NCBI RefSeq assembly: GCF_014696675.1
Contig: NZ_JACJQN010000025.1
Location: forward strand, 1 to 64,000
Source: Phormidium tenue FACHB-1052
Lineage (GTDB): Bacteria; Cyanobacteriota; Cyanobacteriia; Phormidesmidales; Phormidesmidaceae
Length of the DNA stretch: 64,000 bases
Direction: 5' to 3'
Positions 2,282 through 58,777 of this stretch are shown here, one piece after another. The position numbers and the translations under genes are program-made. Under the pieces are notes generated by a model. The model ran no database searches and was not told where the DNA came from. It was given only the letters and a program-made list of their open reading frames with translations. Positions within the stretch are counted from its first letter, which is position 1, and each line of letters opens with the position of its first letter.

Positions 2282-3352
2282 CTAGCCCAGCGGTGCCGCT
2301 TGCAACGACGGCTCTACCGCGCTGGCTAACTGCCGCAGCATAGCCGCTGTAGTGTCAAAATCCACACAGGCATCGGTAACGCTTTGGCCATAGGTGAGCT
2401 GCCGCAAATTGTCAGGGATCGACTGATTGCCCGCCTTCAAGTGGCTCTCAATCATCACACCCAAAATGTGGCGTGAGCCACCGCGCACCTGGGCGGCGAT
2501 GTCATCTAGCACATTGGTCTGGCGGTTGTGGTCTTTGTTAGCGTTGGCGTGGCTGCAATCGACCATCATGCGGTGATTGAGCTTGAGCTTGACCATCTCT
2601 TCGGCGGCTTTGACCACGTGCGCGGCGCTAAAGTTAGGGCCGTCTTTGCCGCCCCGCAGCACTAGGTGCCCATCGGGGTTGCCGGTGGTGGTGACAATGC
2701 TGGCCAGACCGCTTTGATTGATGCCCAAAAAGTGGTGGGGGCGGCTGGCGGCAACCATAGCATTCATCGCCGCTTGCAGGCTGCCGTCAGTGCTGTTTTT
2801 AAAGCCAATCGGCATCGAAAGGCCCGAGGCCATTTCGCGGTGGGTCTGGCTTTCGGTGGTGCGAGCGCCGATCGCAGTCCAGGCAATTAGGTCGGCAATG
2901 TACTGCGGCGTCACCGGGTCGAGCAGCTCGGTGGCGGCGGGCAGCCCCAGGTGGGCCAGGTCGAGCAGCAGCTTGCGGGCCAGGCGCAGGCCGGTGTTGA
3001 TGTCGTAGCTGCCGTCGAGGTGGGGGTCATTGATCAGACCCTTCCAGCCCACGTTGGTACGGGGTTTTTCAAAGTAGACCCGCATGATGATTTCGAGCTG
3101 GCCCGAGAGTTCATGGCGCAGGTTGACTAGCTTTTGGCCATACTCGTAGGCGGCGTCGATGTCGTGCACCGAGCAGGGGCCGACGATGACGAGCAGGCGG
3201 CGGTCTTCGTTGTAGAGAATGTGGCGAATGCGATCGCGCGCCTCGGCCACTAGCGTCGCCGCCTCCGCCGACATCGGCAACTCGTGGTGCAACAGCGCCG
3301 GGCTGACTAAAGGGCGAGTCTCAACAACGTGAAGATCCTGGGTTTGGTGCAT
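2282..3352 (-). CDS. aroF: 3-deoxy-7-phosphoheptulonate (DAHP) synthase, AroG-type class I
   Basis: Condenses phosphoenolpyruvate and erythrose 4-phosphate in the first step of the shikimate pathway to aromatic amino acids. The 356-residue length is normal for the family. Visible signatures are the metal-binding IVGPCSVHD (Cys60), EKPRTNVGWKG around residue 95, GFKNSTDGS, the PEP/E4P-binding VLRGGKDGPN, and MVDCSHANANKDHNRQ, which supplies metal or substrate ligands. The N-terminal extension resembles the feedback-regulated bacterial isozymes, but which amino acid inhibits it cannot be read. ATG start. It stands alone, with a hairpin after its stop. The choice between aroF, aroG and aroH names is conventional. 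Confidence 0.93.
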   Translation of the reverse strand: MHQTQDLHVVETRPLVSPALLHHELPMSAEAATLVAEARDRIRHILYNEDRRLLVIVGPCSVHDIDAAYEYGQKLVNLRHELSGQLEIIMRVYFEKPRTNVGWKGLINDPHLDGSYDINTGLRLARKLLLDLAHLGLPAATELLDPVTPQYIADLIAWTAIGARTTESQTHREMASGLSMPIGFKNSTDGSLQAAMNAMVAASRPHHFLGINQSGLASIVTTTGNPDGHLVLRGGKDGPNFSAAHVVKAAEEMVKLKLNHRMMVDCSHANANKDHNRQTNVLDDIAAQVRGGSRHILGVMIESHLKAGNQSIPDNLRQLTYGQSVTDACVDFDTTAAMLRQLASAVEPSLQAAPLG

Positions 3353-15580: not shown

Positions 15581-17194
<1,614 letters not shown>

Positions 17195-48574: not shown

Positions 48575-49242
48575 GCGAGCCACAGTTGCCGAAGGAGCCA
48601 GAGACCGAGAAAGGGCGATTGATGCGCCAGCAATACCTGGCGCTGGCCAAGGCTTCGCTCAAGGATGCTAAGGACTACGAGAGCCTCTACACCCGCTATA
48701 GCGATAATTCGGTAGCAGCGAAGGGATTAGATCAGGAAGTAGCTAGAGCCGCACTACAAACAGGTAAGTCACCGCGACAGGTCATCCAGCTCTTGGCCCA
48801 GGGGCCGTTTACCCAGCAACAGATTCTGGGATTGTCTGACGAGGAGAAGCAAGCAGCGTTGCCCAAACTGCTCCAGTACGCCCAGAAGACCGTGGACAGC
48901 CTTCATCAGCAGCGCTACCTGGAGTATGCCTGCTCGGTAACAGGGAAAACTCAGAGCTATTCAGACCTCTATCGAGACAATGTGAGCAGTGATCTGTCGG
49001 CGATTCAACTCGACCAGAAGGTGACGGCGGCGGCATTAGGTGTAGGAGAATCGGGAGATGGCGTTGCGGCGCTCCTGCTTCAGGGGCCATACTCTCGTTT
49101 TCAGCAGGATGTTCAGGGCACGTCACTTCAGACTGTAGAGCAGTATGCCCGAGGAACGGTGGCCCAGGTGCAGGCGATTCAGGCACTCCAGATGGGGCAA
49201 TCGCAGCGGATGCCGCCTCGCGCCAGGAACTTGGAGCGCTAG
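48571..49242 (+). CDS. Hypothetical repeat protein (two related halves)
   Basis: 223 residues, soluble and helical. Two halves are clearly related: YESLYTRYS...LDQEVARAALQTGKSPRQVIQLLAQGP (first) and YSDLYRDNV...LDQKVTAAALGVGESGDGVAALLLQGP (second), about 100 residues apart. Each half ends with a similar helix. No known family. The ATGA overlap with the broken upstream gene suggests translational coupling; mobile-element proteins of this style often sit near relaxase genes, but none is seen here. Confidence 0.6.
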   Translation: MSEPQLPKEPETEKGRLMRQQYLALAKASLKDAKDYESLYTRYSDNSVAAKGLDQEVARAALQTGKSPRQVIQLLAQGPFTQQQILGLSDEEKQAALPKLLQYAQKTVDSLHQQRYLEYACSVTGKTQSYSDLYRDNVSSDLSAIQLDQKVTAAALGVGESGDGVAALLLQGPYSRFQQDVQGTSLQTVEQYARGTVAQVQAIQALQMGQSQRMPPRARNLER

Positions 49243-49263
49243 GGTTGAGCCGCTGGTGGCCTG

Positions 49264-49497
49264 TTATTCGTCTAATTCGCTGCTGATGTATTGATTGACA
49301 AAAGTCTCTGCAGCTTCTGAGCTCATTGTTTTGAGGACGCGGACGATGTCCAGAATGGTGTCGCCTGTGGGGTCAATCTTGCCGCTGCACCAGCGGTAAA
49401 CGCTATTGCGGCCAACGCCCATGGTTGCCGCGAATCGATATTGAGTGATGCCGTATTGCTCCAGCACCTGCTTGAGAACGTAGCCTGCCTTTCCCAT
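49264..49497 (-). CDS. XRE-family helix-turn-helix regulator
   Basis: 77 residues. HTH at about 16-40 (YGITQYRFAATMGVGRNSVY), followed by RWCSGKIDPTGDTILDIVRVL, the usual Cro/C1 pattern. The 70-bp gap to the divergent gene holds a perfect 10-bp dyad, a likely own operator. Confidence 0.8.
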   Translation of the reverse strand: MGKAGYVLKQVLEQYGITQYRFAATMGVGRNSVYRWCSGKIDPTGDTILDIVRVLKTMSSEAAETFVNQYISSELDE

Positions 49498-49534
49498 ATC
49501 CTCATCATTTCAGAGGAGGGCTAGGCAAGCGAAT

Positions 49535-49562
49535 CCATATATGTTGACGCACACATATATGG
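49535..49562. promoter_or_regulatory. Perfect 10-bp dyad between XRE regulator and divergent gene
   Basis: CCATATATGT (49535-49544) and ACATATATGG (49553-49562) are exact inverted repeats with an 8-bp spacer. The dyad lies 38 bp upstream of the XRE start and just before the divergent reading frame at about 49568. Confidence 0.6.
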
Positions 49563-49567
49563 ACACT

Positions 49568-49918
49568 ATGATGGCGGTAGGATATTTTGAGGTTCACATC
49601 ATGTTGGTTCCCCAAGGGTTTGTTGGTTCAGAGGTTGGCGGTATAGAGCACGACCTTTTGGTCAGCGTTGAGATCAGGCAAAAGTTGAGCAACTACCCCA
49701 GGCACGACCGAGAGCCAGTGAAGCTTTTGGCGATTGGATCTCGGGAGGCGATTCAGGCGATGCTTCAGCAGATGCATATGTGCGGCTTTGCCGAAATCTT
49801 TGAGTGGACTGACTTTTTACCTGCACCAATGCCCGATCGCCCGCTGATGTGCAAGCCTGGGGAGTTGATGAGGATGTTGGTTAAGTATTTCCCAAAGCCT
49901 TCGAGAATAACTGAATAG
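49568..49918 (+). CDS. Hypothetical protein
   Basis: About 116 residues from an ATG at 49568 (MMAVGYFEVHIMLV); earlier ATGs at 49541 and 49559 lie within the dyad. No recognised family. It contains a repetitive helical part (REAIQAMLQQMHMCGFAEIFE) and a Pro-rich segment (LPAPMPDRP). Context suggests regulation by the XRE protein. Confidence 0.5.
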   Translation: MMAVGYFEVHIMLVPQGFVGSEVGGIEHDLLVSVEIRQKLSNYPRHDREPVKLLAIGSREAIQAMLQQMHMCGFAEIFEWTDFLPAPMPDRPLMCKPGELMRMLVKYFPKPSRITE

Positions 49919-50013
49919 GCCTTTGCTCGCCCTCAGGCCAGAAAACGCTAAAAAACATTGCCTTGCTGATCCAGTTTGCTGCCCAATTCCTAGAAAACAA
50001 AACTGGCGTGAAC

Positions 50014-50271
50014 TTACCCGGACAACTTTTGCTTGTTGGAGGTCGGCCCCATTTTAGAGCGAGATAGGCGACGGCTCTCTAAAAGTTCGGCCACTATCGC
50101 CTGTCGAGCAAGATCACCTTCTGCCTCCCACTCGTGCAAGAAGCGCTTTAACGCTACGTTAGCAACGTCTTGGATAGTGGGCGCTGAGCTTTGATACTCT
50201 CCTGCGAGAGAAATACTGATCTCCCTTAACTTCTCGTAAAGCTCAGACGGAACGCGGATATTTGACGGCAA
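50014..50271 (-). CDS. Ribbon-helix-helix-like small protein
   Basis: 85 residues. The N-terminus (SNIRVPSELYEKLREISISL) has the beta-strand plus helix look of RHH regulators, followed by a helix IQDVANVALKRFLHEW. The tail is basic. It diverges from the DGQHR gene, with a 12-bp palindrome between, so it is probably its regulator. An antitoxin role is another option. Confidence 0.6.
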   Translation of the reverse strand: MPSNIRVPSELYEKLREISISLAGEYQSSAPTIQDVANVALKRFLHEWEAEGDLARQAIVAELLESRRLSRSKMGPTSNKQKLSG

Positions 50272-50335
50272 AGTAAAAGATACCTGGCAACGCCAAGATT
50301 TTAGGAGTTGCCAAAGCTTCTTGCTACCATGAAAT

Positions 50336-50347
50336 CATGTATACATG
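50336..50347. promoter_or_regulatory. 12-bp palindrome upstream of the DGQHR gene
   Basis: CATGTATACATG is a perfect palindrome, 47 bp before the preferred start of the DGQHR gene and 64 bp before the RHH gene. It is a reasonable operator for the RHH protein. Confidence 0.45.
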
Positions 50348-50394
50348 TTTACTGAACTGCGAATTGTCCTAATTCTTCCTAGGGAGGCATGGTG

Positions 50395-51240
50395 ATGGAA
50401 TTGTTGCTTCAGGCGGTGCCGGTTAAACGAGGGCTTAAGCGTAATCAGAAAAGTTATGTGGCCACGTTGTCATTTGGCGACGTGGTGCGGTTGATGGAGG
50501 ATGAACGGTTGTATGTGCCCAATGAACCGGATCTGGCTGACTTTGCCCAGCGCAAGTTAAACCCAGTGCGGGTCAACAACATTGCTAAGTACATTCTGGA
50601 TACCTACCAGGATGGCAGTACCTTCTTCCCAGCCATCTGTCTCAATATTCAACCGGATCCTATCTACCGGAATGGAACGATTGTATTGCCTTATGATTCG
50701 ACATCACTACGATTAACAGATGGGCAGCATCGCTGTTGCGGTATTCATAAAGCCATTAAGTTGTTGCAGGAGGAGGGAGCGCCAGAACTTGCGGAGGTGT
50801 CCAGGTTGGAACTGGGGGCGTTAGTATATGCAGCGCTGCCTCTAGAATTGGAGCGTCAGGCTTTTCGCGATCAGAATTTGTTAGCGCAACGTCCTGGGAA
50901 GTCGTTGGCTCATTTGTTCGACATGCGATCGCCTGAAGTTACCATCGCCAAAGAACTCTGCAAGCGTGTACCCCAATTCCGCTCAAATATTGAAACCGTT
51001 GAGAATGGCCTAGGTAAGCACAATCCTAAGCTAATGACGCTTTCGACGTTGGTCACAGCAACTCAGCACATGTATCTCCGTCTTAGTGCCGAAGATCCGC
51101 TGGAATCTAGAATAGATTGGGCAATGACGTTTTGGGCCGCTGCTGCGAGCGCGTTGCCAGATAATCCTTGGCGAGTATTATCTAAAGCCGAAAGAAAACA
51201 GCAGCGGGAAGACTCTATCGTGAGAGCCGCAATTGGATAA
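50395..51240 (+). CDS. DGQHR-domain protein (DndB/DpdB-like)
   Basis: 281 residues from the ATG at 50395 (MELLLQAVPV), 7 bp after AGGGAGG; the frame's earlier ATG at 50389 is too close to that site. The motif TDGQHR is at 108-113 (LRLTDGQHRCCGIHKA), and ALPLELERQAFRDQNLLAQRPGKSL follows. DGQHR proteins are found in phosphorothioate (dnd) and 7-deazaguanine (dpd) DNA modification systems, where they regulate or take part in the modification. No dndA/C/D/E is present here; preQ0 genes lie 3 kb away. Confidence 0.75.
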   Translation: MELLLQAVPVKRGLKRNQKSYVATLSFGDVVRLMEDERLYVPNEPDLADFAQRKLNPVRVNNIAKYILDTYQDGSTFFPAICLNIQPDPIYRNGTIVLPYDSTSLRLTDGQHRCCGIHKAIKLLQEEGAPELAEVSRLELGALVYAALPLELERQAFRDQNLLAQRPGKSLAHLFDMRSPEVTIAKELCKRVPQFRSNIETVENGLGKHNPKLMTLSTLVTATQHMYLRLSAEDPLESRIDWAMTFWAAAASALPDNPWRVLSKAERKQQREDSIVRAAIG

Positions 51241-51272
51241 AATTTGATTGTTGATTCTGGTGGTATGTGGCT

Positions 51273-52060
51273 ATGAATGCTGACTATTCATTTGATTCCT
51301 TCCCAGATCACACTACTCTACCTGATTCAGACAACTGCCATGCGAACAATTTTCAAGAGCACTTCCAAAGCATTTTACTAACCGATTCTATCCACTCTAC
51401 ATTACAGAAAAAACATCCCGATGGTCAATATATCATTGGTCAAGACTGCGGGATTTATTGGCGAAAAATCAGTTTATTAGAGCAAGGCGCTGAATCACCT
51501 GACTGGTTCTATATCCTAATGTTCCAGTCAAGCTAGATGACCAAATGCGGCGATTCTATGTGCTTTGTAAAGAGCTTAAACCGCCCCTAATTATCTCGGA
51601 ATTTGCTAGTGGTGATGGCTCAGAAGAACATGGCAGAACGCCTCTCTCTCAAGCCTCAGGCAGCATAAAGCCAGGCAAGTTTTGGGTTTATGAGAAAATT
51701 ATAAAAGCACCTTATTATGGCATATACAATTTCCTAGAGCCTGACTTGATAGTTTATAAACTAGAAAGTAGCTCTTATCAAAAAATCACCGTCAATAATC
51801 GAGGACACTTTCCAATTCCAGAACTCGGTATAGAGTTAGGCCTGTGGGAAGGCGCGTATCAAAATCAGAGCAGAATTTGGTTAAGATGGTGGGACAGTCA
51901 AGGCACTCTGCTGCTAACTGGAACAGAAAAGGCCCAAATAGCTGAGCAAGCCTGTAAAGCCTCGATTACTCGCCTCCAAAAGATGGGGCTAACCATAGAG
52001 GAAATTGCCGAGGCCTTTACCTTACCTATGGGAGTCATCCAGAACTATGACGAATCTTAA
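51273..52060 (+). pseudogene. Uma2-family nuclease-like gene with a frameshift
   Basis: The first frame (51273-51536) holds MNADYSFDSFPDHTTL ... YIIGQDCGIYWRK ... ESPDWFYI. It then meets TAG, while the plus-one frame continues NVPVKLDDQMRRFYVLCKEL, with LIISEFASGDGSEEHGRTPL and APYYGIYNFLEPDLIVYKLE to 52060. Reading across needs one inserted base near 51515-51525, so a single-base deletion is likely. Uma2 proteins have a PD-(D/E)XK fold and are abundant in cyanobacteria; their role is unclear. The AT-rich composition suggests transfer. Confidence 0.75.
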
Positions 52061-52117
52061 AATCACTTTTAGCAGGCTTGCGCTAGCCTAAAGACAACAT
52101 AGGCCTCAAAGGTTTAA

Positions 52118-53086
52118 ATGGGAAATCTTGCTTCCTTCCTCCAATCTGAGTTTCCTCAGCATGTCCCTGCTGGATGGAGTTGTTCACCCGAATTTCATAT
52201 TTTGCCTCCGGATCTTAGTGAACTTCTGGGTTACTCCTCTAAGGTAGATGTTTTGTTGGAACGAGAATGTGGTCACAAGCGTCTATGGATCGAATTTGAA
52301 GTAAGTAGAGCCGATCCGGTTGCTAATCACGCTAAGTTTGCTACATCTCATCTTTTCCAACCTCAGAGAGAGGGTGATGTTTTTGTAAGCATGATTAGTT
52401 CTCATGTCACACGGGGTCGCCGCAATTTGGCTTCTAATACTATTTGTCTGATGAGAGAAGTAGGAATGAATGCTTTTCAAACCGTCCTTCTACCTTATCT
52501 GCCACCATGTGAGATTAAAAGAATAAATCACCTTGAAAAACAATTAATTGCTCTGGAGAATTTAGATATTTCCGCCGAAATTTCTAGAGCTATGACTGTA
52601 TCTGAGGCTATCATTGATGAGCCAAATAAAAAGCTCTATTTCGCCAGTGATTTATTAGATGTATTTCTTAATCTGAGGCGATGGAATGCTGAGATTTCAT
52701 CTGATGGATTAGCGTTAGAGAAATGGGGGAAGCGGACAATAAAGTATTTTGTTTTCGATCCTTTTTCTCATGAATTTGCTCCATCAAAGTTTTGTGCTTA
52801 CCTGGGGAAAGAAAAGAATCTAGAAGAATCTACTAGAAGTTATTTTAGTCATCGCTTCGCTATGTCAATCGATTTTTATGTGACTTTGGACGGTGTTTAT
52901 AGCCGTTTTGATGGATATAGAGCACAAAGTCATTTAACACAAGGGTTAGGAATGAAATCTGTTAATGGTTCAGAATCAGGTTCTATATCAACCTTTTTTG
53001 AGCGATGGCTCAAAAGTCGTAGTCACGCGATTCGGGTTCACCCCAAAGGGCCAATCTTTCTCGTTTCCCCAGAATGGTTTAGATAG
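52118..53086 (+). CDS. Hypothetical protein with a possible PD-(D/E)XK-type motif
   Basis: 322 residues, AT-rich and of different codon style from the core genes. Residues 42-64 (KVDVLLERE...LWIEFEVSR) give Asp44 followed by Glu59 and Glu61, reminiscent of the nuclease D...ExK core with Lys replaced, then ADPVANHAKFATSHLFQPQ. Family unknown. It could be a restriction-type enzyme or a DNA-binding protein. It has no partner methylase visible. Confidence 0.5.
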   Translation: MGNLASFLQSEFPQHVPAGWSCSPEFHILPPDLSELLGYSSKVDVLLERECGHKRLWIEFEVSRADPVANHAKFATSHLFQPQREGDVFVSMISSHVTRGRRNLASNTICLMREVGMNAFQTVLLPYLPPCEIKRINHLEKQLIALENLDISAEISRAMTVSEAIIDEPNKKLYFASDLLDVFLNLRRWNAEISSDGLALEKWGKRTIKYFVFDPFSHEFAPSKFCAYLGKEKNLEESTRSYFSHRFAMSIDFYVTLDGVYSRFDGYRAQSHLTQGLGMKSVNGSESGSISTFFERWLKSRSHAIRVHPKGPIFLVSPEWFR

Positions 53087-53149
53087 CGCGTGTAGATAGA
53101 TTACTGGGGAGATTGAGCTAAAATCACAACCTCCCCAGCGATGGATTAG

Positions 53150-53398
53150 TTACGACAAAGGATTCTCACTAACGAGCTTCACCAAATACCGCATAACTTC
53201 ACCTTGTCTAGGAGTAATAGTCAAACCATTTTCAGGCACGTAGATTTCCTGACTCCACCGGGCTTGTTCTATGTAATTGAGCACATGCAGCAGAAAAACC
53301 GTTTGCTCAACTGCATTAGGAGAACCCAGTAAAATATGGCGCACCCATTCTCGACCAGGCTGATTATCAGGATTGGCTAGCAGTATCGGGCTTGTCAT
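53150..53398 (-). CDS. Hypothetical small protein
   Basis: About 82 residues from the ATG at 53398 (MTSPILLANPDNQPG). Helical: VRHILLGSPNAVEQTVFLLH, then YIEQARWSQEIYVPENGLTITP and MRYLVKLVS. No family recognised. The frame opens at 53443 with a hydrophobic start that looks non-native. It lies downstream of the inverted-repeat element. Confidence 0.5.
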   Translation of the reverse strand: MTSPILLANPDNQPGREWVRHILLGSPNAVEQTVFLLHVLNYIEQARWSQEIYVPENGLTITPRQGEVMRYLVKLVSENPLS

Positions 53399-53745
53399 CT
53401 GGCTCTGGCGGGCAGACGACCACAGGTAAGGCAAAAACAACATAAGGGATTCCTCAGAAACAGTGGGGAAGGAATCCCAAAAATTTGGCCGCCCCAGACA
53501 TGTGCAATTCGGGACGGCCTAAGCAATAATAGCGTCACCCTCCGAGACAGCTCGCTCTGTCAACGGGGTTAGCCGCTGGTTGGTGCTGGTAACACCTCCC
53601 AGTGGCGCTTAACCAAATTTTTGGGAAGCAAAGCTGCACTCACACAGCTATAAGATAGAAATTTAGCCTATTCATAGCTCAGCCGCAAGTCAAAATTGAT
53701 ACCTATCCTACTTCAGCCTCAAACCTTAACATGCTGACTGATAGC
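53399..53745. other. Intergenic region with inverted-repeat element
   Basis: About 350 bp with no gene; it holds the IR-bounded segment 53475-53626. The que operon ends just to the right, so part may be its transcription end. Confidence 0.5.
53475..53626. repeat. 152-bp segment bounded by 14-bp perfect inverted repeats
   Basis: TCCCAAAAATTTGG (53475-53488) and CCAAATTTTTGGGA (53613-53626) pair exactly. The interior is GC-rich and includes another hairpin (GACAG...CTGTC at about 53546-53561). It could be a small element, a structured RNA, or a terminator-like structure beyond the que operon. Confidence 0.5.
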
Positions 53746-54459
53746 CTATGCTCTCAATGCAGTTTGCTGATCAATCAAGGTCTGGAACGTTTGCGGTGTC
53801 TCGTAGACCTCCTTCAGCAAGGTCGGTTGATATGCAACTATCTCGGCAAACTGTTTGAACAGAAAGCCCTTCAGCCCAACTAGCCCATAGCGGTACCGTT
53901 TCGCCTCCGGGTTTGATAACGGCATGACATAGGTCTTAGCTGCCATACCCTGAATACTATCCGCTTGCCCTCGTGAAGCCAGGAAAACAAAAGTCTGATC
54001 AGTACGAGAGACTAGTGGTAAGGTTGTTGCCCTGAGGTAGTTATCGCCCAGCAGAAAAAAGATGAGATCGTAGGCGGAGATGAGGGATGCGATCGCATCA
54101 TGAACACCCAAATGAATGGCCCAAGCATCGACCTCGTGGGATTTCATGCCGTTAAAAGTGACTTCGTAGGGCACAATCATTTGCCTCTCAGAAATCACCC
54201 CATAGCCTGCTGACAAAATGCTGACATCCAGAGCTTTATGTCCGAGGGCATCACGGAGTTTCTGGACACCTTCCATTAACCGCAGGTGCTGCATTCCGGT
54301 GTACATTTCACCGGCAGGGCAAGCGTAATCTCCCAGTTCAACTTCCCGATCTATGAGCCGAGCCTCATCCTTGAAATCTTCGATCGTGAGTTGCTTCTCA
54401 GGCTTAAACCGCTTTTCCCCAGTGCAGGATGTAATGACTAGAACACGGGGGTAAGGCAT
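53746..54459 (-). CDS. Uncharacterised SCTGEKR protein of the que operon (YaaA/DUF6884-like motif)
   Basis: 237 residues, soluble. The N-terminus [13 protein letters not shown], then [18 protein letters not shown] (about 46-63) and [20 protein letters not shown] (about 80-99) recall the YaaA/DUF6884 layout (LSxxxGLxxP...PY). No TGT, QueF or QueG motif is present. The ATG at 54459 lies inside the end of queC (22-bp overlap), with AGGAG upstream, so it is translationally coupled to preQ0 synthesis. A role in using or inserting preQ0 is likely but unproven. Confidence 0.6.
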
Positions 54460-55160
54460 TCAATCTCCTGGGCATGTAGTCGTCGGCCTATCAACGTTGC
54501 CAGATCAGGGCGTCCGGCGTCAATTAAGGCTTTATCCCGAATCCGGCACGAATCGCAGCGTCCACAGGGTTCCTTGCCCCCTTCGTAGCACGACCACGTT
54601 TCTTGGATGGGAACACCCAAGCTTAGGGCACGATGGACGATCGCGACCTTAGAATCCATCACCAACGGAGCGATCAGCCTAGGGGCCTTACCTTCTAGGC
54701 CAGCCTTGGATGACAGATGAGCCAACTGCTGGAATATCTCTAAATATTCAGGCCGACAGTCGGGGTACCCCGAATAATCGACGGCGTTAATGCCCAGGTA
54801 GATCGCCTCAGCTTGTTTGGCCTCTGCTAAAGAGAGCGCGATCGCAACAAATACCGTATTCCGCCCAGGCACATAGGTCGAGGGAATCACCTCAGACTGA
54901 ACACCGTCCTGGGGCAGGGTCTCATTCATATCTGTCAAGGAGGAACCACCCCACTGGGCCAGATTCACCTCCATCACGTAATGGCCTTGAATGCCCAGGT
55001 GGGCCGCAATTTTGCGCGCAGATTCCAACTCTCGGTCATGGCGCTGGCCGTAGCGGAAGGAAAGGGCTATCGGAGTGTAGCCGTCTGCGATCGCCTGGGC
55101 CGCTGCCGTGGCAGAGTCTAGACCACCCGAAAGTAGGACAATGGCTTTGGGTTGGGGCAT
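54438..55160 (-). CDS. queC: 7-cyano-7-deazaguanine (preQ0) synthase
   Basis: 240 residues. PP-loop [15 protein letters not shown] at 9-23. The C-terminal zinc site is a Cys cluster ([20 protein letters not shown], about 186-206). QueC turns 7-carboxy-7-deazaguanine into preQ0 with ATP and ammonia. It starts 2 bp after the queE stop and its 3' end overlaps the SCTGEKR gene. Confidence 0.95.
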
Positions 55161-55162
55161 AG

Positions 55163-55813
55163 CTATTGGACTCCCAAGAATTTATGAGTTTGAAGGCTAA
55201 CGCGCCACTCTGGATGTTTCAAGACGTAGGCGAACACTTTGTCGCGACTGCCAGGCGTTTCCCACTCGGGTTGCAGCAGCTTAACAACGGTGGATGAGAC
55301 CTGAGTGGCCTGCTGTTCGGCCCATTCCAAATCAACCTCATTCTGGATGACAACCTTGAGTTCGCTAACGTGGGCATAAATGCTTGAATGGGGAGGCTTA
55401 AATCGCTTGGGCGAAAACGTCACCCAGTCAAAGTTGCCGCTAAAGGGATGAGCACCCGATGTCTCAAGGTGTGTCTGGAGACCCGACTCTTTGAGTTGCC
55501 CAGTTAGAGCAGAAAGATCGTGCATCAAGGGTTCTCCCCCTGTGATCACAACGATTTGAGGATTGGCTGATTGGGCCTCAGCAACCAATTCCTCAAGGGT
55601 TCTCAGAGGGTGGCGCTTGGGGTTCCACGATTGCTTGGTGTCGCACCATGGACAACCCACGTCGCACCCGGCTAACCGAATGAAGAAGGCATTTGTGCCC
55701 GCCCACATCCCTTCCCCTTGAATAGAGTGGAACGTTTCAACAACAGGCAGAGCCAAAGTTAGTAGTGGAGATTCAGCCGTCTGGGAGATCGTGGTCGGGG
55801 AGGTCATTTTCAT
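55163..55813 (-). CDS. queE: 7-carboxy-7-deazaguanine synthase
   Basis: 216 residues. Radical-SAM motif CDVGCPWC ([16 protein letters not shown]), preceded by [13 protein letters not shown], and VITGGEPL as the SAM GGE-type motif. Converts 6-carboxytetrahydropterin to CDG. The start (ATG 55813 or 55807) lies within the end of the upstream small gene (overlap about 40 bp). Confidence 0.95.
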
Positions 55814-56183
55814 CTATTGCGTGAACAGCACCAGACTCGGTATAGTTTTGCCACCAATCATCCATCTCATCAGGCATAGGGAGAAGATGGTGAGATAAGG
55901 CATCTCGAATGACCGAGATTTCCCCTTCGTCAGTCCACTCATGGTCAACGCCATGGGGTTGGGATACCGGAATCGGGTACGTAGGCTCTTGGGCGATCAG
56001 TGCAGCGGCGACATCGCGGACATCAAACTGGCACCTAAGATTACCTTCATCACTACTGGTGGAGAATTGAAAGGTCATCGGAGAAGAAGTATCACCATTC
56101 TTATAAACTCGGAATATGGATTGCCCTGCAACTTCGCAGAAGACCTCAGGACTCACATACTCTTCAGTGACAACGACCGGCAT
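55773..56183 (-). CDS. Small acidic hypothetical protein between queD and queE
   Basis: 136 residues from the ATG at 56183 (MPVVVTEEYV), which follows a good AGGAGG site; upstream in-frame ATGs reach 56222. Helix-poor, and acidic at the C-terminus ([13 protein letters not shown]). Family unknown. Its placement inside the que operon, 19 bp after queD and overlapping queE, points to a linked role, for instance an accessory or regulator of preQ0 use. Confidence 0.55.
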   Translation of the reverse strand: MPVVVTEEYVSPEVFCEVAGQSIFRVYKNGDTSSPMTFQFSTSSDEGNLRCQFDVRDVAAALIAQEPTYPIPVSQPHGVDHEWTDEGEISVIRDALSHHLLPMPDEMDDWWQNYTESGAVHAIDENDLPDHDLPDG

Positions 56184-56202
56184 AGGATTCCTCCTTGAGC
56201 GC

Positions 56203-56592
56203 TCAATCATCTTCATACTCAACCCAGGAATTCGGCGTTTCCGAGACCGCCACTTTTAGCTGAATGCCTTCAGGAAGAGACCTTTTCGTCTTTTCGTAGA
56301 TGTACTGGGCAATCATCTCGGCAGTGGTTTCATAGTCTTCAGGCAGCACATCATTCAGCACACAGTGATCTAACCCACCCTTGAGCATGTCTTTCTTCGC
56401 CCAGCGCAGGGTACGAAAGTCAGCCACCATAACCGGATGGGGGCAAAACTCCGACGCTCTAAGCTGAGATGTGGTGGCCTCAACGCGCACCCGATAGGTA
56501 TGCCCATGCATTCGCCCGCAGGGGCCGTCATAGTCTTTGATGTAGTGGGCGGCATCAAAGGAAAATTCTGTTTTGACGCTCCACTTGGGCAT
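56203..56592 (-). CDS. queD: 6-carboxy-5,6,7,8-tetrahydropterin synthase
   Basis: 129 residues. Zinc-binding His residues are in FDAAHYI and GRMHGHTYRV. LDHCVLNDV and the closing SETPNSWVEYED complete the QueD/PTPS-I pattern. First committed step from dihydroneopterin triphosphate to preQ0. It leads the operon; its promoter should lie upstream of 56592, where I saw no preQ1 riboswitch. Confidence 0.94.
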   Translation of the reverse strand: MPKWSVKTEFSFDAAHYIKDYDGPCGRMHGHTYRVRVEATTSQLRASEFCPHPVMVADFRTLRWAKKDMLKGGLDHCVLNDVLPEDYETTAEMIAQYIYEKTKRSLPEGIQLKVAVSETPNSWVEYEDD

Positions 56593-57117
56593 AGCGTATG
56601 GCCTCGGTCAGACTGTAGTACAAGCATTCTATCCTGAAGGCAAGCTTCAGCAGCACGCTCATCAAGAACTTGCTCATTCTAAGGCAAATCTAGATATGGC
56701 GTTGTGGAATATAAATTTGGATTTCTTGACGCTACATTAAGCGATTGCGCGTCTAGAAGTCGCTGAAAACGAGACGGTCTGCCGACAGAGTGCCTTGACA
56801 GAATTGTAGGCTCCACACTTTTACCTGAGGTACCTCGCCTACCTGAGGTACCTCGCCCCAGTGGGGGTGTAGCGCTGAGAGAAATAGCCTGATTGCATGA
56901 CCCAAGTAGCCTTAGGCTCGGTACCCTAAATCGATGGCATTGGGGCTGAGCTTGCGGATGAGGCTGTTCGTGGTCCGGAGCAGCGGGTAGTCATGTGGTA
57001 GCGGGGTTGTGGATCAGGTGCTGAGTAAAGTCTAGACTTTGCTCGATAGCATCGCCGGGAACGGGAAGCCCATAGTTTATAAGGCGATCACTTACTTATC
57101 CTAGAACGTCCCCAAGG
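56593..57117. other. 525-bp region upstream of the que operon
   Basis: No gene is seen. It holds the tandem repeats at 56822-56857 and a G-rich stretch after them. It should include the que promoter and possibly its operator. Confidence 0.5.
56822..56857. repeat. Two exact tandem 18-bp repeats, each with a palindromic core
   Basis: TACCTGAGGTACCTCGCC is repeated exactly (56822-56839 and 56840-56857). Each unit holds the palindrome GAGGTACCTC. Placed 230 bp upstream of queD, a double operator is possible. Confidence 0.55.
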
Positions 57118-57585
57118 TCAGGAGATCTGTTCAATCTGGCACTCAAAGCCCTCGTTGTAGCCCTTGTACCAGCACTGAAGAACACCCTCCGAATCATTTG
57201 TAAAGCGCACAGTCAACCGCTCCAGGGTGATCCAATCATAGCCACCCGTGGTCTCCGGGCACGGCTGCCGCTCTCGGGTCAACACTTGCTTCACCCGCGT
57301 CAACGTTGCCCACCCACAATGAGGAGCCCCGGCATAACTCTCAAACACCTCCGAGATTAGGCCGATCGCATCGGGTGAAAAGCTCTGGGGACACAGCGAT
57401 TCCGGCAACCCAATCGCCGTCGTCAACTGCTCATCTGACCACCAGGCCCACCACTCCTCACGGTGCAGCAGCTGTGCATCTTCTGCCTGTCGAATGTTTG
57501 ACCAGGGCGTCTGATCTAGTGCAGCCAGACGAAGCGCCTCAAACCAGGTCACTGCCACATAGCGACGCGTTAAAAATCGAGCCAT
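57118..57585 (-). CDS. Hypothetical protein
   Basis: 155 residues, rich in Trp (EEWWAWWSDEQL). It begins MARFLTRRYVAVTWFEALRL and has ITLERLTVRFTNDSEGVLQ near the end. No family recognised. Coding style matches the element genes. Confidence 0.5.
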   Translation of the reverse strand: MARFLTRRYVAVTWFEALRLAALDQTPWSNIRQAEDAQLLHREEWWAWWSDEQLTTAIGLPESLCPQSFSPDAIGLISEVFESYAGAPHCGWATLTRVKQVLTRERQPCPETTGGYDWITLERLTVRFTNDSEGVLQCWYKGYNEGFECQIEQIS

Positions 57586-57858
57586 GATGCCCCTACTCCG
57601 CTACCGGCCTACGGATGACCACCGCAGCAAGAGCGCTAATGGCCCCCAATGCTCTGCCCCCAAAGCGTTGATTCAAAATTTTCGTCATCTCAGTCCAACC
57701 CTGTGTGTGCGATGGCGGTGATACGAGCGACTACGACCCTGGGGCAAACAGGCCATCACTCCGCCACCCAAAAATCAGGTAGCAAATATCACCAGTACAT
57801 CACTTGTACTGTGCTGATAGACAGAATCCGGATGAAACGATCAAAGCCGTGTCGAACG

Positions 57859-58284
57859 CTACGACACGACCTCCGGCCCGCCTTCAATCTCCACTTCCAT
57901 CCGCGAGATCGCTTTCTCGTAAACCCGTAAGCCCAACAAAACCAGGCGCACCAGCATTTGGTCAGGATTGCGCTGGCTCGCTTCCGCTAATTCCACAATA
58001 CGCTCAGTGGGGATGTGCTCATTGAATAAGAGCAGATTTGCCTCCAGTTCATGTGCCAGAGGACGGCGGTGCTTTTGGGCACCCTCTCGCAGCTGTTGCC
58101 CCAACTCACTCGTGAGTAGTAGTTCCATGATTTCGGCCAGGAAGGGCGATCGCTTCCGGTTCCCCTCCGCCGCGCACTGAGCCTCGATCGCCTCCAGCAG
58201 TTCAGCGGTCATGTAGAACGTCGGGCGGCATCCGCCTTCTGAGGCATCGGATGACTTATCGTGAGGCACAGGCGACTTGACCAT
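57859..58284 (-). CDS. RHH-like regulator upstream of the type IV secretion operon
   Basis: 141 residues. RPTFYMTAELLEAIEAQCAA (about 20-39) followed by NRKRSPFLAEIMELLLTSEL resembles a ribbon-helix-helix with an added C-terminal helical region. It faces the virB-like operon across 493 bp containing the palindrome TTACATGAATGTAA, so it probably regulates transfer. Confidence 0.55.
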   Translation of the reverse strand: MVKSPVPHDKSSDASEGGCRPTFYMTAELLEAIEAQCAAEGNRKRSPFLAEIMELLLTSELGQQLREGAQKHRRPLAHELEANLLLFNEHIPTERIVELAEASQRNPDQMLVRLVLLGLRVYEKAISRMEVEIEGGPEVVS

Positions 58285-58777
58285 AGGAGCATAGTGACGA
58301 GACCAACTGCCGCTATCCTAGCCTCCTACTCAAGTGGCTGAAAGTCTGCGGTACGGAGATTCATAGAACTCTAGTGCGGATGAAGTAGATCCCCTCTCTG
58401 CTTCACATCCTCTTAATTAAGGATTTGTCATACTCCTGCCGCCTGACATTGGACAAGTCGATGCCCTAGATAGCTTGCAAAGGCTTCGCCCCTGAAGCTC
58501 TTAAAGGTAATCATGGTCAAGCTTGCGTTACATGAATGTAAACAAATCCTAAAAACTGCTTTACTTTTCGAGTCACCTCGTTCAGTATGACCAAGTAGTA
58601 CTTAAAAGATAAAAGTACGATAAAGATTGAGTCACCAATCTTGAGTTCCTGATAAAGTTCCGTGTTTGACCTGCGGGTGGCGAGACCAACGATCTGCCAT
58701 ACGTAGCTGAAAATCGTCCTACTTAATCTGTTCAGGGAGCCATCTACCTACGTCCTAAATCTTTTGGAGTAGGAGAT
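58285..58777. other. 493-bp divergent region upstream of the virB-like operon
   Basis: No gene is supported. It holds a candidate operator at 58528-58541 and a leader hairpin at 58623-58642 (AAGATTG-AGTCAC-CAATCTT). The RBS AGGAG precedes virB2. Confidence 0.5.
58528..58541. promoter_or_regulatory. Candidate operator of the transfer operon
   Basis: TTACAT-GA-ATGTAA is an exact dyad with 6-bp arms, 237 bp upstream of virB2 and 243 bp from the RHH start. Confidence 0.4.

Follow-up and report, generated by a model that had tools for sequence, protein, structure and literature searches.

The locus described here is most closely related to the Dpd system (dpdABC-DEFGHIJK, often with queDEC/folE), in which preQ0, the product of QueD, QueE, and QueC, is used by DpdA to mark DNA with 7-deazaguanine. 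The GATOR-GC paper lists DUF6884 as the dpdC domain and DndB as the dpdB domain, and Dpd islands, some of them without restriction genes, have already been described in the same source (PMC11888242). GrwAB, according to its description, performs modification-dependent restriction of 7-deazaguanine phages, and the phages that escape it carry changes in dpdA (PMC12137116). BRIGADE is presented as a 7-deazaguanine cluster with a PLD or at times a PD-(D/E)xK nuclease and with YprA helicases (PMC12458937). DpnI and DpnII of pneumococcus are described as alternatives to each other, of which one is directed at methylated DNA and the other at unmethylated DNA (PMC3573125). The locus to be compared with these systems lies in a stretch of 64,000 nucleotides (bases 1-64000 of the 69,078-bp contig C18) from the genome of Phormidium tenue FACHB-1052 (G000, 5.8 Mb in 36 contigs), which is here called the window. 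It consists of a preQ0 operon that ends in a DUF6884 gene, opposed by a gene for a likely PD-(D/E)XK nuclease, here called PDnuc. We read it as a dpd locus of which the DNA-marking enzyme has been cut off and in which a nuclease-like gene has taken its place, the product of which would, in the mechanism that we prefer, attack 7-deazaguanine-marked DNA. We put the probability of this reading at roughly 0.55.

The features on which the reading is based are given below, with protein lengths in amino acids (aa). The nearest loci, L048 in Nodosilinea sp. LEGE 07298 and L049 in the filamentous cyanobacterium CCT1, both contain queD-X-queE-queC and a 685-aa DUF6884-DpdA gene.

52118..53086, plus strand: PDnuc, 322 aa, convergent to the truncated DUF6884 gene
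53746..54459, minus strand: DUF6884 (DpdC/YaaA-like) gene, 237 aa (PF21818, 2.3e-11)
53759..53764: junction, where homology to the L048/L049 fusion ends, at about codon 234 of 685 in the inter-domain linker
54438..55160, minus strand: queC, 240 aa (PF06508, 4.8e-70), with SGGLDS and the Cys cluster present
55163..55813, minus strand: queE, 216 aa (PF04055, 8.2e-10; rSAM_QueE_Ecoli, 1.8e-36), with CxxxCxxC at residue 50
55773..56222, minus strand: gene X, encoding an acidic protein of 149 aa, without family match
56203..56592, minus strand: queD, 129 aa (PF01242, 2.4e-30), 97% and 96% identical to L048 and L049

The five open reading frames (ORFs) of the operon, queD-X-queE-queC-DUF6884 at 53746-56592 on the minus strand, agree in number and order with those given in an earlier note made from the DNA letters alone. 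The overlaps that it put at 22 and about 40 bp were measured as 22 bp (QueC/DUF6884) and 41 bp (X/QueE), to which are added an overlap of 20 bp between QueD and X and a gap of 2 bp between QueE and QueC, and its identification of QueD, QueE, and QueC is borne out by the profile matches and motifs listed above. Its SCTGEKR protein is the DUF6884 protein, and its acidic protein is the product of gene X. The operon is not a chance arrangement, since two other genomes have the genes in the same order, with a DNA identity of 91%. In blastn searches, the identity was 91.5% to L048 (53759-56770) and 91.1% to L049 (53764-56765) over about 3.0 kb, and it stopped at the junction. Left of the junction, the sole similarity to L048 was a 64% DNA match at a Uma2 gene, which was considered as a sign of shared flank ancestry and then dropped because Uma2 genes are numerous in cyanobacteria. 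An origin of the operon from a sequenced phage was likewise rejected, as all 327 phage records that matched QueC were less than 60% identical.

With the DUF6884 protein as query, matches were obtained in 11 of 386 cyanobacterial genomes, the genome of the window included. Five of the ten others contain a frame of about 700 aa with DUF6884 at the N-terminal end followed by DpdA, and the DpdA part of such fusions is recognised by PDLC02807 (2.8e-130 in L020) and by the model for "tRNA-guanine transglycosylase DpdA", NF041059 (3.5e-143 in L048, residues 288-682). DUF6884-DpdA fusions are already known, and plasmid records annotate the fusion genes as DpdA. The window protein corresponds to their N-terminal domain: it is 95% identical to that of the L048 fusion, and the whole NF041059 part is missing from it. 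Among the matches from 63 genomes of the family (best five per genome), no other spans the junction of the window. On this evidence, the operon is closely related to those of the form queD-X-queE-queC-(DUF6884::DpdA), and what remains of the fusion in its last gene is the N-terminal third, the DpdA part having been lost.

The remaining 237 residues are predicted to fold as a complete DUF6884 domain. The predicted model has a mean confidence (predicted local distance difference test, pLDDT) of 94.6 and aligns to YaaA of E. coli (5caj) with a Z score of 10.4 and a root-mean-square deviation (rmsd) of 4.5 over 184 residues. In PADLOC, the protein matched PDC-M57A first (1.6e-9) and then DpdC (4.2e-9). 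The matches to PF21818 and PADLOC DpdC and the modelled YaaA fold thus point to a DpdC-type component of a Dpd system. Nineteen columns, C12 and K16 among them, are invariant in 46 DUF6884 sequences, including that of the window. The Pfam paper likens DUF6884 to YaaA and regards it as a probable DNA-binding domain (PMC11701544). The ratio of non-synonymous to synonymous substitution rates (dN/dS) of DUF6884 was 0.125 and 0.152 between the window and L048 and L049, respectively, and 0.143 between L048 and L049, and a three-point split by hand gave about 0.13 on the window's own branch. By this measure, constraint on the cut-off domain equals that on the domain in the intact fusions.

No gene for DpdA or another tRNA-guanine transglycosylase (TGT) was found at the locus, as the earlier note had said, and the search for DpdA in the rest of the genome with PDLC02807 and NF041059 was also negative at E<=1. 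A DpdA hidden elsewhere was rejected on these grounds, PF01702 having yielded only one full-length TGT, of 415 aa. A remnant of DpdA behind DUF6884 was rejected too: a relaxed tblastn search of 53000-53800 gave short matches at chance level, while L022/L060 keep about 38 codons. Because the homology stops in the linker and no DpdA was found in the genome, the locus appears to be a dpd locus without its DNA-marking enzyme. The earlier note had tied the operon to 7-deazaguanine marking and suggested that the element marks its own DNA against host restriction. The tie holds with respect to kinship, that is, to the DUF6884 domain of DUF6884-DpdA proteins and to the DndB family, which includes DpdB. 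It is not supported for present marking, because the fusion breaks off sharply before its DpdA half and neither model detected a DpdA elsewhere in the genome. The marking could be rescued by assuming an inserting enzyme that is not recognised as such, and the joint occurrence of preQ0 genes, a DndB-family protein, and DUF6884 would fit with it. However, it is precisely the known enzyme for insertion that the locus has lost, and PF01702 revealed a single TGT, which has full length and presumably acts on tRNA, so that we consider this explanation very improbable. PDnuc was rejected as a candidate for such an enzyme in view of its nuclease-like fold and the lack of a family match or solved relative.

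The locus most likely no longer marks DNA, and its preQ0 would feed tRNA queuosine. To judge from the que genes, the operon would still make preQ0, which would have no known route into DNA with DpdA gone and would serve tRNA queuosine instead. The precursor set is present, with queD, queE, and queC in the locus and a full-length TGT of 415 aa elsewhere in the genome (contig C36; PF01702, 1.9e-153), presumably the tRNA enzyme. The QueE of the operon is the single match in the genome (own protein as query, E<=0.001), and one QueE each was likewise found in the genomes of L048 and L049 with the window QueE as query. The full-length TGT together with a QueE that was found only here would explain why the que genes persist. 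The question raised in the earlier note, whether the genome has a second que set, thus has a mixed answer for the two proteins looked for: a second full QueC is encoded on contig C5 (143319-143960), and QueE was found only in the operon. The situation that it named as contrary to its proposal, an only que set that serves tRNA, applies by half, as there is a TGT elsewhere and QueE is found only here, yet QueC has a second copy. Queuosine leaves the persistence of DUF6884 and PDnuc unexplained.

PDnuc, which the earlier note passed over and which proved to be the most informative part of the locus, is without match in Pfam, PHROG, PADLOC, and NCBIfam, has no solved relative by sequence, and was not matched in phage records or viral contigs. 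Foldseek returned no match at E<=0.001 for its model or for the DUF6884 model. In two alignments of six and five sequences, D44, E59-x-E61, and SRADPVANH are invariant. The conserved acidic residues expected in the active site of a PD-(D/E)XK nuclease are accordingly found as D44, E59, and E61, of which we take E59-x-E61 to be an ExE variant as in BamHI. The secondary structure of the AlphaFold2 (AF2) model (pLDDT 70.3) fits the alpha-beta-beta-beta-alpha-beta core. In VIA-align, the best match of this mediocre model was McrC of McrBC (6hz4; Z 7.2, rmsd 3.5, 114 aligned residues), and other nucleases scored Z 4.2-6.5, with Can2, Bax1, EndoMS, FokI, BspD6I, BstEII, and BamHI at 4.5-5.8. The model and motifs make it likely that PDnuc is a PD-(D/E)XK nuclease. 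The gene is stop-free in all eight copies examined, with dN/dS of 0.11-0.26 in four pairs, indicating that it is under purifying selection.

To place PDnuc in relation to DpdA, loci found mostly via DUF6884 were compared. The count started from 55 loci; L092 was dropped (its contig ends 382 bp on), L022 and L060 are on the same contig and were counted once, and L121 and L122 were added by hand to the seven loci with PDnuc, giving nine (the window, L021, L056, L058, L060, L085, L094, L121, and L122) against 47 without. PDnuc lies beside the DUF6884/DpdA gene in all nine, although both genes are fragmentary in L094, and the orientation is convergent in all eight intact loci. Full-length DpdA is present in none of the nine loci with PDnuc versus 41 of the 47 without it (Fisher test, 6.6e-7, which ignores kinship; L070-L072 and L082-L084 are near-copies among the latter). 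Three of the nine (the window, L085, and L094) have no DpdA left, and L060 retains some 38 codons of it; in the other five (L021, L056, L058, L121, and L122), the match to DpdA breaks off somewhere between residues 275 and 339, according to which query was used. The six loci with neither PDnuc nor full DpdA are L063, L089, L091, L095, L096, and L097, of which L096 and L097 are fragments. The lost end carries a CxCxxC..RxxH motif, present in 41 of 41 loci with full DpdA and in 1 of 14 others, which we take to be the TGT zinc site; the shortened forms are for this reason probably inactive.

The loci with PDnuc are scattered on the DUF6884 tree, in which 15 of 48 inner branches are open, and their near sisters without PDnuc keep full DpdA (the window versus L048 and L049; L056 versus L057; L060 and L021 versus L062). 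The presence of PDnuc requires five changes among six rows; shuffled labels gave a mean of 5.8, with 98 of 500 as low, so the clustering is at chance level. In Pseudanabaena, L056 (with PDnuc) and L057 (without) are 93% identical up to the replacement point, where 1.08 kb with PDnuc stands in L056 in place of 2.5 kb of L057 that include the 3' end of dpdA. The PDnuc proteins of L121 and L021 are 89% identical while their DUF6884 domains are 53% identical, and L070, a locus with full DpdA but without PDnuc, has a DUF6884 that is 90% identical to that of L121, indicating that PDnuc has passed between dpd backgrounds. These patterns point to repeated landings of PDnuc in dpd loci. Searches with PDnuc as query gave matches in 3 of 386 cyanobacterial genomes, in 1 of the 398 genomes examined from the phylum to which L085 belongs (the seed genome alone), and in 6 of 217 in a third survey (two already known, two new and intact, two fragments); all five intact cyanobacterial copies found in this way adjoin DUF6884.

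If PDnuc were a homing-type nuclease, cutting dpdA and destroying the gene by inserting a copy of itself at the cut site, this would account for the lateral spread and for DpdA matches that end at residues 275-339 in five of nine loci. Yet no DpdA is left in the window, L085, or L094, and ordinary recombination via shared flanks explains similar ends equally well, which makes homing distinctly unlikely. Plain decay is harder to set aside. According to this explanation, the dpd locus is dying, PDnuc is unrelated cargo that landed in dpdA, and the que genes are kept for queuosine, in line with the single QueE of the genome. Signs of decay are two in-frame stops in the DUF6884 gene of L056, where PDnuc is intact, a stop within the shortened DpdA of L122, a dpdF that is shortened in L121 and split over two frames in L122, the loss of most of both genes in L094, and a dN/dS of 0.31 for the shortened DUF6884-DpdA of L121/L122 versus 0.08 for full DpdA of L048/L049. 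Random cargo would, however, hardly have come to adjoin DUF6884/DpdA in several lineages from two phyla and in convergent orientation in every intact locus, and the window and L085 have an intact DUF6884 although DpdA is absent. On balance, we find decay possible but doubtful.

L085 is a metagenome-assembled genome (MAG) of Thioalkalivibrio in which DUF6884 and PDnuc are both intact with their stops 32 bp apart and in which no DpdA was found in the genome. Together with the similar lack of DpdA in the window and the convergent neighbourhood, it could suggest a pair that works independently of DpdA, with DUF6884 sensing or altering 7-deazaguanine in DNA, PDnuc cutting it, and DpdA being dispensable. 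This is unlikely, as PDnuc is intact where DUF6884 is broken (L056) and occurs on a Methylibium plasmid without a DUF6884 match.

In the preferred reading, the lone DUF6884 domain would still fold and could act only on 7-deazaguanine already present in DNA, for example foreign DNA, and PDnuc would be a working nuclease that is kept by selection and does not tolerate, or does not need, DpdA. Its attack would depend on the modification and be aimed at 7-deazaguanine-marked DNA. A conventional restriction enzyme, from whose cuts the mark protects, would be harmful to a host that has no DpdA, while PDnuc persists intact without it in the window, in L085, and in L060 with its few codons; with an enzyme directed against marked DNA, by contrast, DpdA would have to be lost. 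It is solely from the exclusion of full-length DpdA, that is, from where DpdA is missing, that we infer an attack on marked DNA, and on marked DNA only. More tentatively, PDnuc may represent a new family of restriction nucleases for 7-deazaguanine DNA that is incompatible with DpdA and replaces its end, perhaps with DUF6884 as the base-recognising partner. The exchange would then be a switch similar to DpnI/DpnII, from marking the own DNA to destroying the marked DNA of phages and other dpd bearers, and PDnuc would spread among bacteria as an interchangeable terminal part of the dpd locus.

Compared to the Dpd system, the window shares the preQ0 genes, a DndB-family protein, and a protein with the predicted YaaA fold, and relatives of its operon carry DpdA and in some cases also DpdE/DpdF. 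It differs in that no DpdA was found in the locus or genome, in that homology to DpdE/DpdF was not detected (tblastn with one cyanobacterial DpdE and one DpdF, no window match at 1e-4), and in the PD-(D/E)XK-like gene that is present instead. As far as the published descriptions cited at the outset go, GrwAB resembles PDnuc in the proposed target and in that its phage escapers are changed in dpdA, of which the PDnuc loci have lost part or all, but GrwAB is GmrSD-like (DUF262) and PDnuc a single PD-(D/E)XK-like protein and putative nuclease. The likeness to DpnI/DpnII lies in the either/or exchange, here proposed in dpd loci for 7-deazaguanine; unlike in pneumococcus, the exchange leaves a broken dpdA behind, and the specificity of PDnuc is a proposed one. 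BRIGADE also joins 7-deazaguanine genes to a nuclease, but is reported only from halophilic archaea and with YprA. In the literature searched, which did not include key papers on Dpd biochemistry, we found no account of PDnuc or of an exclusion between it and DpdA.

Several observations weigh against the preferred reading. The best Z score of PDnuc, 7.2, is below 8, and for values under this level the tool cautions that nothing more than a common arrangement may be shared; unrelated folds reach scores similar to those of some nucleases, for example ATP citrate lyase with 5.9 and stressosome proteins with 5.8; and the other four models reached a pLDDT of 42-51 compared to 70.3 for the best. PDnuc is not strictly tied to dpd, because the Methylibium copy (plasmid RPME01) has no DUF6884 match beside it and two fragments lie without dpd genes in the stretches examined. 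The reading frame of the shortened DpdA remains open in L058 and L121, and the protein could retain some function. Relaxed selection is not general, since dN/dS is low for the part shared by L056/L057 (0.094), for DUF6884 of L021/L060 (0.146), and for DpdE of L121/L122 (0.158). As for the window itself, DpdA may be situated on unassembled DNA, or the assembly may be chimeric at the junction (36 contigs), and a very different second QueE could be missed by a search with the window QueE alone. Finally, the truncation may be recent, in which case a conserved DUF6884 is no proof of present use.

If the reading is correct, PDnuc is a candidate for another attacker of 7-deazaguanine DNA besides GrwAB, in the form of a single small gene, and marking and anti-marking compete for one locus. 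The window also cautions against taking the proximity of a preQ0 operon to DUF6884 or DGQHR genes as proof of DNA modification.

Gene X, which has no match in Pfam, PHROG, PADLOC, or NCBIfam at the thresholds used, was seen only in the window, L048, L049, and L051 among 52 loci, the window included. It evolves faster than the neighbouring operon genes, with dN/dS of 0.27 and 0.31 between the window and L048 and L049 and 0.72 between L048 and L049.

Other genes were observed near DUF6884 and DpdA in the loci compared. In the Nostoc-type loci with PDnuc (L021, L060, L121, and L122), DpdE appears to be without its N-terminal part, its match beginning, where this was measured, at residue 102 or 231; a 189-aa protein and a small regulator-like protein are located between DpdE and PDnuc. 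Near many full-length cyanobacterial fusions there is a protein of about 290 aa (FLPVFSVDWL...; L020:5469-6386, and also in L023, L025, L026, L053, L059, L061, L062, L064-L068, and L070-L072). It gave weak PADLOC DpdA matches (0.016 and 0.042), may be an accessory TGT-like protein, and was not seen in the seven PDnuc loci compared, some of which are short. Myxacorys contains a second DpdA-type gene that adjoins the fusion (L020:7571-8575, 334 aa; PDLC02807, 4.7e-54), with a similar one in genome G391. In Noviherbaspirillum, a gene of about 410 aa precedes DUF6884, with no DpdA after it (L091:8750-9988 and L095:8781-10001), and may encode another partner.

The neighbouring features in the window are as follows:

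50014..50271, minus strand: small protein, 85 aa, 43-54% identical to counterparts in L020, L021, L022, L025, and L026
50389..51240, plus strand: DGQHR/DndB-family gene, 283 aa (PF14072, 2.5e-59), candidate DpdB
51267..52060, plus strand: Uma2-family gene in two ORFs, 51267-51536 and 51545-52060, the second matching PF05685 (1.1e-5)
53150..53704, minus strand: small multi-copy gene of the genus, with a 97-aa ORF (53150-53443) and a conserved upstream stretch

The 85-aa protein, which by eye is probably a ribbon-helix-helix regulator, is kept beside dpd loci. The DndB protein is 55-65% identical to the one adjoining other cyanobacterial dpd loci, and the DndB model alone matched it in PADLOC. 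The split Uma2 gene is probably broken, as both of its ORFs are matched by the single 266-aa Uma2 gene of L048. The small multi-copy gene adjoins the cut, between the junction and PDnuc; further copies occur on contigs C36, C31, C2, and C13 of the same genome and in relatives, and the 97-aa ORF shows 54-59% amino acid identity in L112-L115.

No tRNA that could mark an integration site was found in the window, and an RNA feature at the locus was rejected, Rfam being without match at E<=1 in 49000-58500. The type IV secretion operon that the earlier note had assigned to the element could not be confirmed: its 970-aa ATPase-like protein, with a Walker A motif (GETRSGKS) recognised by eye, had no match in Pfam (E<=0.01) or to a solved chain. 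The left part of the contig looks chromosomal, because the two genes sampled at the far left, for DAHP synthase (2282-3352) and GMP synthase (15581-17194), are housekeeping genes. A UvrD-helicase-like stretch at 1017-1223 is 41% identical over 67 aa to the helicase of the Myxacorys dpd locus.

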